Assembly (NCBI RefSeq): GCF_030332225.1
Contig: NZ_JAOWIF010000042.1
Location: forward strand, 30,176-94,175
Source: Citrobacter sp. Cu233
GTDB lineage: Bacteria > Pseudomonadota > Gammaproteobacteria > Enterobacterales > Enterobacteriaceae
DNA length: 64,000 nucleotides
Direction of reading: 5' to 3'
The notes under the pieces were generated by a model. That model was not told the origin of the DNA. It was given only the letters and a program-made list of their open reading frames with translations, and did not search any database. This document shows positions 60,974 to 64,000 of this stretch, in pieces (the stretch's first letter is position 1; every line of letters begins with the position of its first letter). The position numbers and the translations under genes are program-made.

Positions 60974-61999
60974 GTGATGCCTCAATCTCTCCCTCAATCC
61001 AATCCGCCTGAGCGGCGGTTTCGCTGGCCAAAGGGAATGCCACAACTGGTGGCGCTGCTGTTGGTGCTGCTGGTGGATAGCCTGGTCGCTCCGCACTTCT
61101 ATCAGGTGATTTTGCAGGATGGCCGCCTGTTCGGCAGCCCGATTGATATTCTCAACCGCGCAGCGCCCGTGGCGCTGCTGGCGATTGGCATGACGCTGGT
61201 GATTGCCACTGGCGGCATCGATCTTTCTGTTGGGGCGGTGATGGCCATTGCGGGGGCGACAACCGCTGCGATGACGGTTGCCGGGCACAGCTTACCCGTG
61301 GTGCTGCTTGCTGCCTTAGGCTCCGGTCTTCTGGCGGGATTGTGGAACGGGATTCTGGTGGCGATCCTCAAGATCCAGCCGTTTGTCGCGACGCTGATCC
61401 TGATGGTGGCTGGGCGCGGTGTTGCGCAGTTGATCACCTCCGGGCAGATCGTCACCTTCAACTCCCCTGATCTGTCGTGGTTTGGCAGTGGCTCGCTCTT
61501 ACTGTTCCCCACGCCCGTGATTATCGCATTGCTAACGCTGGTGGTGTTCTGGTTGCTGACCCGAAAAACGGCGCTGGGCATGTTTATTGAAGCGGTAGGC
61601 ATCAACATTCGCGCGGCGAAAAATGCCGGGGTCAACACCCGCATCATTGTGATGCTTACCTATGTACTGAGCGGCCTGTGCGCGGCGATTGCCGGGATTA
61701 TCGTCACCGCAGATATTCGCGGAGCTGATGCCAATAACGCCGGGTTATGGCTGGAGCTGGATGCCATCCTGGCGGTGGTTATTGGCGGTGGTTCGCTGAT
61801 GGGCGGACGTTTTAACCTGCTGCTATCGGTAATTGGCGCGTTGATCATTCAGGGGATGAACACCGGGATTTTACTGTCGGGCTTTCAGCCGGAACTGAAT
61901 CAGGTGGTCAAAGCCATCGTGGTGTTGTGCGTGCTGGTCGTGCAGTCACAACGCTTTATCAGCCTGATAAAAGGAGTACGCGGTCGTGATAAAACGTAA
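60974..61999 (+). CDS. ytfT: Galactofuranose ABC transporter permease YtfT
   Basis: A BPD_transp_2-family permease with eight to ten helices and the conserved GMTLVIATGGIDLSVGAVMA and ANNAGLWLELDAILAVVIGGGSLMGGR segments. GTG 60974 gives 341 residues as in E. coli and has GGAG six bases upstream; ATG 60971 and ATG 60977 are close alternatives. It forms the channel together with YjfF, whose gene overlaps it by 14 bases. Confidence 0.94.
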   Translation: MMPQSLPQSNPPERRFRWPKGMPQLVALLLVLLVDSLVAPHFYQVILQDGRLFGSPIDILNRAAPVALLAIGMTLVIATGGIDLSVGAVMAIAGATTAAMTVAGHSLPVVLLAALGSGLLAGLWNGILVAILKIQPFVATLILMVAGRGVAQLITSGQIVTFNSPDLSWFGSGSLLLFPTPVIIALLTLVVFWLLTRKTALGMFIEAVGINIRAAKNAGVNTRIIVMLTYVLSGLCAAIAGIIVTADIRGADANNAGLWLELDAILAVVIGGGSLMGGRFNLLLSVIGALIIQGMNTGILLSGFQPELNQVVKAIVVLCVLVVQSQRFISLIKGVRGRDKT

Positions 62000-62987
62000 T
62001 TTACCGCTGATGATCACCCTCGGGGTCTTTATTTTGGGCTACCTCTACTGCCTGACGCAATTTCCGGCTTTTGCCTCCACCCGGGTGATCTGCAATATTC
62101 TGACTGATAACGCCTTTTTAGGGATTATCGCCGTGGGTATGACTTTCGTCATTCTCTCCGGGGGGATCGATCTTTCCGTCGGGTCGGTGATTGCCTTTAC
62201 GGGTGTATTTTTAGCAAAGGCGATTGGTTACTGGGGGATTTCGCCACTGCTGGCGTTTCCTTTGATTCTGGCAATGGGCTGTGCGTTTGGTGCGTTTATG
62301 GGGTTGCTGATTGATGCCCTGAAGATCCCGGCATTTATCATTACCCTGGCGGGGATGTTCTTCCTGCGCGGTGTTAGCTATCTGATTTCCGAAGAGTCGA
62401 TTCCGATCAACCATCCTGTTTATGACGCCCTCTCCAGTTTGGCATGGAAGATCCCCGGCGGTGGTCGCCTGAGTGCGATGGGATTGCTGATGCTAGGGGT
62501 CGTCATCATCGGTATATTCCTGGCACACCGTACGCGCTTTGGTAATCAAGTTTATGCCATTGGCGGCAACGCCACTTCGGCCAACCTGATGGGGATCTCA
62601 ACCCGCAGCACGACAATCCGCATCTATATGCTGTCTACCGGGCTTGCGACGCTGGCCGGAATCGTCTTTTCCATTTATACCCAGGCCGGTTATGCGCTGG
62701 CAGGTGTCGGGGTAGAACTGGATGCTATTGCCTCGGTAGTGATTGGCGGTACGTTGCTCAGCGGTGGGGTTGGTACGGTTTTAGGTACCTTATTTGGGGT
62801 TGCCATTCAGGGGCTGATTCAGACCTATATTAATTTTGATGGCACATTAAGTTCCTGGTGGACAAAAATCGCGATTGGCATTTTATTGTTTATTTTTATT
62901 GCCTTACAACGTGGTCTCACGGTACTTTGGGAAAATCGTCAGAGCTCGCCGGTCACCCGCGTGAGCACGGCTGAAGTACCAAAGTAA
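61986..62987 (+). CDS. yjfF: Galactofuranose ABC transporter permease YjfF
   Basis: The second permease (333 residues; E. coli 331) has the same signature as YtfT (GMTFVILSGGIDLSVGSVIAF, VGVELDAIASVVIGGTLLSGG). The start is GTG 61986 inside the ytfT 3' end, so translation is probably coupled. It ends the operon. In K-12 fbp follows on the other strand, but here a chemoreceptor gene comes next. Confidence 0.95.
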   Translation: MIKRNLPLMITLGVFILGYLYCLTQFPAFASTRVICNILTDNAFLGIIAVGMTFVILSGGIDLSVGSVIAFTGVFLAKAIGYWGISPLLAFPLILAMGCAFGAFMGLLIDALKIPAFIITLAGMFFLRGVSYLISEESIPINHPVYDALSSLAWKIPGGGRLSAMGLLMLGVVIIGIFLAHRTRFGNQVYAIGGNATSANLMGISTRSTTIRIYMLSTGLATLAGIVFSIYTQAGYALAGVGVELDAIASVVIGGTLLSGGVGTVLGTLFGVAIQGLIQTYINFDGTLSSWWTKIAIGILLFIFIALQRGLTVLWENRQSSPVTRVSTAEVPK

Positions 62988-63019: not shown

Positions 63020-63046
63020 TAAACTTTTTCCGGTTGTAGTCGATAG
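63020..63046 (+). promoter_or_regulatory. Sigma-28 (FliA) promoter of the terminal chemoreceptor
   Basis: The -35 TAAACTTT (63020-63027) is one base from TAAAGTTT. After exactly 11 bases comes the -10 GTCGATAG, two bases from GCCGATAA. The arms of a 13-bp inverted repeat (63027-63039 and 63071-63083) start in this promoter. Confidence 0.8.
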
Positions 63047-63090
63047 GTTCTGTACAGGTCTGTTTTATCCCTACAACCGGAAATATAACG

Positions 63091-64000
63091 ATGCCAAAAT
63101 CCCTTTCAATTCGATCAAGTTTGTTGGTGTTATTGTCTCTGCTGACGTTTCTTCTGTTGCTGACCGGCGGTATGGGGCTTTATGCCGCTACCCGAGTTAT
63201 TAACTCTTTGGTTTATCACGGTATTATGAGTGCTGCTATGTTGGCTGCTATTGCGTTGCTGGCGGTCATTTGGTTTATGCTGCGAAATAAGTTTCTTAAA
63301 CCCCTGGATAACATTATTGAACAGCTGGAACGTCTGGCGACAGGCGATTTGTCGCCTGTTAGCACGTTATCGGCCAGCGCTGAATTCAACCGCCTTAACG
63401 CTGCAATGGATGAAATGCGCCATGCGTTGGGGGATTCTGTGCAGCGTGTGCGTGAAGCCAGCTCGCAAATTGATGTTGGCAGCCGCGAATTGAGCGCCGG
63501 TAACCAGCATTTGGCGCAACGTACAGAATCCACCGCCACGTCGCTGGAACAGACTGCTGCCAGTATGGAAGAACTCACCGCGACCGTGAAACAAAATGCG
63601 GAAAACGCAGAACAGGCGCATCAGCTGGCGAAATCGGTATCGGATACCGCCGATCGGGGCAGTGAGATGGTGTGCTATGTAATTGAAAAAATGCGCGATA
63701 TTTCCGGCAGCTCCAGCCGAATTGCCGATATCCTTAGTGTGATTGACGGTATTGCTTTCCAGACCAATATCCTGGCACTCAATGCCTCCGTTGAAGCGGC
63801 GCGCGCGGGTGAGCAAGGCCGTGGTTTTGCGGTGGTAGCAGGGGAAGTACGCAATCTTGCCAGCCGTAGCGCCGAGGCGGCAAAAGAGATCCGTACATTG
63901 ATTAGCGATTCCCATACGCATGTGGGTGAGGGAAGTGAACTGGCGCAACAGGCGGGTGAAACCATGGATGAAATCGCGACCGAGGTTATGCGTATGACCA
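63091..64000 (+). CDS. Methyl-accepting chemotaxis protein without periplasmic sensor domain (partial, runs off the window)
   Basis: An open frame from ATG 63091 to the window end gives 303 residues without a stop. TM1 (about 10-33) is followed by only about 14 residues ([14 protein letters not shown]) before TM2 (about 46-64), so the usual 150-residue sensor domain is missing. HAMP (about 65-115), methylation helix and the signalling tip ([37 protein letters not shown], 217-253) are intact, with Ser233 in place of the usual Ala. No frameshift is seen. It could be a naturally sensor-less receptor or an in-frame deletion of a Tsr/Trg-type gene. A FliA promoter precedes it. Confidence 0.9.

Follow-up and report, generated by a model that had tools for sequence, protein, structure and literature searches.

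How does a transmembrane chemoreceptor that has no domain outside the membrane come to be kept in a genome, from where might it take its input, and what governs its synthesis? These questions are raised by a gene at the end of a 64,000-nt stretch of the genome of Citrobacter sp. Cu233 (the whole of the analysed stretch is referred to here as the window; coordinates beyond 64000 are window-equivalent positions read from the genome contig), which encodes a methyl-accepting chemotaxis protein (MCP) without a ligand-binding domain. From comparisons of sequences across the Enterobacteriaceae, we consider it rather probable that this protein is a derived, sensor-less receptor that would receive input through its transmembrane (TM) helices and HAMP domain or from neighbouring receptors, and whose FliA-type promoter would carry a hairpin that blocks the translation of read-through messages.

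A chemoreceptor that lacks a ligand-binding domain

The gene (63091..64000 in the window, plus strand) was defined from its open reading frame, the contig sequence, Pfam matches and hydropathy. The frame begins with an ATG at 63091 and stays open to the window end; read past 64000 in the genome contig, as the reading of the letters alone that preceded this work (the sequence-only reading) had proposed, the full gene runs to a stop at 64203 and encodes 370 aa. Pfam searches identified a HAMP domain at residues 64-113 (E 2.2e-06) and an MCPsignal domain (PF00015) at residues 178-332 (E 6.7e-55), and nothing besides these two; a TarH or 4HB ligand-binding domain between TM1 and TM2 is absent. A hydropathy scan, read by eye, placed TM1 at about residues 9-31 and TM2 at about residues 43-64, with a loop of some 8-14 residues between them, while an AlphaFold2 model, which was of low confidence (mean pLDDT 66.4, pTM 0.31, 10 sequences) and was used for helix boundaries only, contained helices at residues 4-34 and 39-83 separated by a short turn. 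Pfam and hydropathy together bear out the layout of TM1, loop, TM2, HAMP and signalling domain, without a periplasmic domain, that the sequence-only reading had described. Of the 15 MCPs found in this Citrobacter genome, none has a shorter open frame than the one in the window, at 387 aa (370 when counted from the ATG); L012 comes next at 419 aa and was judged by eye to be sensor-less too.

Origin by loss of the sensor domain

Among the matches listed, longer homologues were found in 60 of 392 Enterobacteriaceae genomes, with 74-82% identity to the window MCP from about residue 45 onwards; one of the 60 has a stop inside its frame. Of the 39 of these loci that were retrieved, 38 have yjfF upstream and 36 have fbp downstream; a contig or stretch boundary cuts off two of the three loci without fbp. 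The 39 long forms encode proteins of 517-523 aa, most commonly 521, and are about 151 residues longer than the 370-aa window MCP. Pfam identified a TarH domain in L126, the single long orthologue tested (E 6.9e-20). Since remoter fbp-linked relatives that lack yjfF are also full length by size (518-534 aa), the long form is likely to be ancestral. As judged from these alignments, the window MCP is a derived form of an fbp-linked chemoreceptor, produced by the in-frame loss of about 151 codons near residues 41-45, and the TarH ligand-binding domain is the part that an old deletion removed.

Trees of the signalling region, built from both protein and DNA, placed three short forms from the genus labelled g72 apart from the other 21, so that two changes are needed; a single short-form clade was not rejected on the gene tree (approximately unbiased test, p 0.443). 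On the fbp tree four changes are needed, and one clade was again not rejected (p 0.431). The sensor would thus have been lost in one or two events, and the near-equal length of the short forms, together with their ungapped alignment, favours one.

Conservation of the short form and selection upon it

The short form is present in at least 16 of the 392 Enterobacteriaceae genomes, from eight genera (a lower bound, counted among the best matches listed, with up to 13 and up to 5 candidates scored per genome). Four of these genomes are Citrobacter, nine are spread over six further genus labels (Yokenella and C. amalonaticus among them), and three are g72 genomes, whose short forms have a diverged N-terminus. 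At all 16 short-form loci checked, fbp lies downstream. Within Citrobacter itself, the gene was found in 14 of 17 genomes (our own plus 16), at 94% identity or more across the matched part, and 12 of the 14 copies are intact. One further genome, G403, has an additional 388-aa frame that weakly matches the TM2-HAMP portion. A megablast search of 5,426 E. coli genomes gave partial hits in 102, of which the 20 listed all lie in tap and none reaches 80% query coverage, and a search of plasmids returned five weak partial Salmonella matches and nothing else.

Purifying selection acts on the short protein. For the 66 pairs within Citrobacter, the ratio of nonsynonymous to synonymous substitution rates (dN/dS) was 0.072 for TM1, 0.112 for the loop, 0.061 for TM2, 0.062 for the HAMP region and 0.021 for the signal domain; for the other short-form genera of the larger cluster (36 pairs) the corresponding values were 0.169, 0.070, 0.272, 0.139 and 0.035, and the signal domain of long-form pairs gave 0.046. 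Four loop positions, Y31, A32, I37 and S39, are invariant in 21 of 21 members of the larger short-form cluster.

These data bear on whether the short frame might simply reflect a recent deletion, a pseudogene or an assembly error, as the existence of longer orthologues and of two broken Citrobacter copies might be taken to suggest. Proteins of 370-373 aa with the same junction occur, however, in eight genera and in separate assemblies, with low dN/dS, and this explanation retains almost no probability; its recent-deletion and assembly-error versions are ruled out by the genome survey. The sequence-only reading had allowed for a recent in-frame deletion: the deletion stands, given longer orthologues at the same locus in other genera, but its recency does not, given the short form in eight genera. 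Nor is the gene a misassembly or peculiar to one strain, both of which that reading had entertained, the short form being present in 14 of 17 Citrobacter genomes and common to eight genera. Its view of the gene as functional and not a decaying pseudogene holds in the main, the gene being mostly intact, selected and conserved, though with exceptions in Citrobacter that count against a receptor needed throughout the genus. Of the 14 Citrobacter copies, two are broken (L047, from C. youngae CCUG 30791, by a frameshift, and L048, from Citrobacter sp. MGH106, by a stop 17 codons short of the usual end), and three of the 17 genomes (G003, G012 and G016) are without the gene, which implies that some lineages can dispense with the MCP. 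In these three genomes (L102, L104 and L103, respectively), the roughly 640 nt between yjfF and fbp hold a small unrelated open reading frame with CxxC pairs and hydrophobic stretches, as read by eye, and the idea that it might be an MCP remnant was rejected for that reason.

A hairpin arm within the promoter spacer

Upstream of the receptor gene lies yjfF (61986..62987, plus strand), the last gene of the ytfQRT-yjfF operon for a sugar ATP-binding cassette transporter, and the supposed source of read-through transcription. A FliA (sigma-28) type promoter, TAAA-N15-GTCGATAG, lies at 63020..63046 on the plus strand, as matched to the FliA consensus, in agreement with the FliA promoter noted in the sequence-only reading. 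A FliA-type match with no more than two mismatches in the -10 element precedes the gene in 76 of 76 short and long rows scored, with the last TAAA base differing in four of them (L151, L153, L155 and L159). Superimposed on this promoter is a 13-bp inverted repeat on the plus strand, recognised by sequence pairing, the left arm of which (63027..63039) falls inside the promoter spacer while the right arm (63071..63083), supported by folding too, covers the likely Shine-Dalgarno sequence (GGAAA) of the MCP. The local RNA fold has a predicted energy of -22.6 kcal/mol (z -3.07), equalled by one of 200 shuffles.

The pairing is conserved beyond the window. Over the 76 rows, the pairing score of a row's own arms averaged 26.5, compared with 17.7 when arms were exchanged between dissimilar rows and 12.0 when right arms were shuffled, and 56 rows lay above the 99.9th percentile of shuffles. 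In 43 aligned rows, 90.5% of cells were paired and the covariation score reached 0.387; shuffles averaged 0.187, and none of the 500 came up to the observed value, whereas slid alignments of the arms gave 23.8-53.7% paired cells and covariation scores of 0.030-0.143. These alignments show that one arm of the predicted hairpin sits in the promoter spacer and the other over the putative Shine-Dalgarno sequence, and that the two arms pair and covary. The helix is also associated with the upstream gene: 59 of the 61 rows in which yjfF lies upstream have it, as against 3 of the 15 in which yjfF does not (Fisher p 1.2e-9, relatedness not corrected). Two of these three yjfF-less rows, L056 (C. amalonaticus) and L096 (G355), come from the short cluster, whose other members have yjfF. 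Within one clade, neither yjfF nor the hairpin is found in L150 and L166-L168, whereas L151, L153 and L156 keep both; in L161, yjfF is kept and the hairpin is degenerate.

An inverted repeat that overlaps a promoter could instead be a protein-binding operator, a common role for such repeats. We regard this as quite improbable here, since the gap between the arms varies from 18 to 60 nt across 62 loci, the arms change together between genera and the repeat tracks the presence of yjfF upstream. As an RNA hairpin, by contrast, the repeat would discriminate between messages: because the left arm lies between the -35 and -10 elements, a FliA transcript cannot contain it. The MCP would be transcribed from its own FliA-type promoter as a message that stays translatable, and messages reading through from ytf-yjfF would fold shut. 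In line with this, for the 62 rows that have a hairpin the predicted probability that the Shine-Dalgarno sequence is unpaired averaged 0.12 when the message was a read-through one and 0.49 when it started at the FliA promoter; the corresponding means for the 14 rows without a hairpin were 0.41 and 0.48.

Several features of the data speak against this regulatory reading. Two positions of the window's -10 element do not match GCCGATAA. Seven pairs are changed on both sides, which is not exceptional, 80 of 500 shuffles having reached that number, and covariation was computed on 43 of the 76 rows, after 13 (12 without yjfF, plus L152) had been set aside. The cut-off score of 18 for calling a helix was chosen after the scores had been seen and is lenient, such that the hairpin-less paralogue L006 reaches it by chance. 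Finally, some rows have no predicted contrast between messages (L151 gives 0.17 in both).

Two further observations concern the same region. When 11 of the 14 other MCPs of the genome were scanned, the best pairing score was 22, compared with 32 for the window MCP; this came from L011, upstream of an MCP with a 654-aa open frame, where a weaker 10-bp complementarity links a FliA-type spacer and the Shine-Dalgarno region. In addition, codons 1-30 of the window gene (63091-63180) have a dS of 0.175 within Citrobacter, compared with about 0.6-0.7 in the rest of the gene, hinting at a further constraint at the level of RNA.

Possible inputs to the receptor

At the level of sequence, the receptor keeps what a chemoreceptor needs inside an array. 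Both membrane helices and HAMP are there, as are most of the methylation sites, and the tip of the signalling hairpin is nearly identical to that of a Tsr-like paralogue, from which it differs at two positions. Of the four methylation sites of Tsr, three have E or Q in the window MCP. It would be expected to join mixed trimers of dimers and arrays. No C-terminal pentapeptide of the NWETF type was found among the short and long locus rows examined, the window MCP included, while paralogues L001, L002, L004 and L005 of the same genome end in NWETF or HWETF. Since such a pentapeptide serves CheR and CheB, adaptation would have to lean on neighbouring receptors.

Because there is no outside domain, input would most likely enter via the TM helices and HAMP, where membrane state, cytoplasmic pH, aromatic compounds or temperature might act, or else would come from neighbours in mixed trimers. 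The sequence-only reading had likewise suggested membrane state, temperature and cytosolic pH as possible cues, besides energy, or a helper role in mixed arrays. We give TM/HAMP input about an even chance; this weight, like those for the two alternatives below, is a judgement and not a measurement. There is precedent in E. coli Tar mutants, for which one study maps responses to Ni2+, aromatic compounds and osmotic shock to the TM, HAMP and sub-HAMP regions (PMC6062612). On the simplest view, a receptor reduced to these parts may either specialise in input of this sort or set the bias of the array.

The second of these roles requires no sensing at all, the protein filling the array or setting kinase bias, with an unvarying output that would move the baseline of mixed arrays. 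The lack of a sensing domain, the strong constraint on the signal domain relative to the other regions and the absence of a pentapeptide-like end would all suit it, but purifying selection also acts on TM1, the loop and TM2 of the 21-member cluster, in which some loop residues never vary, and we think a receptor that senses nothing unlikely, if well worth keeping in view. Other observations count against the main reading. Evolution is faster in the TM region than in the signal domain, which suits a sensor but would also suit a mere anchor, and there is hardly any constraint on the loop of the three g72 copies (dN/dS 0.78; 14 codons, 3 pairs). The first of the four Tsr methylation sites is a serine in the window MCP; the same serine occurs in four of the five long forms shown, the fifth (L172) having E.

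Signals may also reach a receptor through a partner in the membrane, as archaeal HtrII receives its signal from sensory rhodopsin. Here the TM helices might bind such a sensing partner, perhaps the adjacent YtfT/YjfF transporter, given that the MCP follows yjfF at 13 of 16 short-form loci and at all but one of the 39 retrieved long-form loci. The remaining evidence makes this improbable. C. amalonaticus L091 and L096 (G355) have no yjfF or ytfT match in the stretch beside the MCP and yet keep both MCP and hairpin, G410 (L095) has just a piece of yjfF next to the MCP, and the receptor is full length in all three; long-form relatives beside fbp but without yjfF also exist. Loci without ytf genes thus weaken any dependence on the ytf transporter, and TM/HAMP input remains the reading we prefer.

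Comparison with known systems

Searches of the open-licence literature, which do not prove that none exists, turned up no account of this locus or of its hairpin, nor of a sensor-less form widely retained alongside a sensor-bearing orthologue at one locus, nor any functional description of the long yjfF-fbp receptors. The nearest parallel is Salmonella Tip, identified as STM1657 in one source (PMC4742279) and described as a sensor-less MCP in another (PMC5315404); a sensor-less MCP is therefore not new as a kind. Both Tip and the window MCP are sensor-less, but they are probably different genes. The Citrobacter genome has a second sensor-less two-TM MCP (L059, 6792-8027), which lies beside a zntB-like gene, has 34% identity to the window MCP and gives no HAMP match. 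Tip is placed next to zntB, and, judged by that linkage, L059 is probably its counterpart and the better fit. With a Tip-like gene lying elsewhere in the genome, we think it unlikely that the window MCP is the Tip orthologue.

Closer relatives are the long receptors at the yjfF-fbp locus, which share promoter type, hairpin and signalling domain with the window MCP and differ in length (517-523 aa) and, in the one tested, in having TarH. One locus thus offers orthologue pairs with and without a sensor domain, the short form spanning eight genera, which makes what a receptor can do without a ligand-binding domain directly testable. Another chemoreceptor kept after the loss of its sensing part is Tls of E. 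coli B2, a truncated Trg that retains no more than a portion of the signalling domain of the cytoplasm and acts as a repressor of FlhDC activity (PMC12623472), whereas the window MCP keeps both TM helices and HAMP.

For the hairpin, the parallel is with the late genes and homing endonucleases of phage T4 (I-TevI, soc and e), in which longer messages form a hairpin over the ribosome-binding site and the promoter is so placed that its own transcript misses a portion of that hairpin (PMC2988022). The MCP locus resembles these in having a predicted upstream arm within the promoter, a downstream arm over the ribosome-binding site and conserved pairing; it differs in its sigma-28-type promoter and in serving a bacterial chemoreceptor gene, and is known here from its sequence. 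We tentatively suggest, at somewhat less than an even chance for the whole, that the locus uses the T4 late-gene logic, with the promoter spacer doubling as an anti-Shine-Dalgarno arm so that only transcripts of the flagellar programme would be translated, and that several genera have long kept a receptor with no ligand-binding domain, the two TM helices and HAMP of which would be its natural sensor. If true, a means of keeping read-through messages silent that is known from phage would, through the hairpin in the promoter, be at work in a bacterial motility gene.
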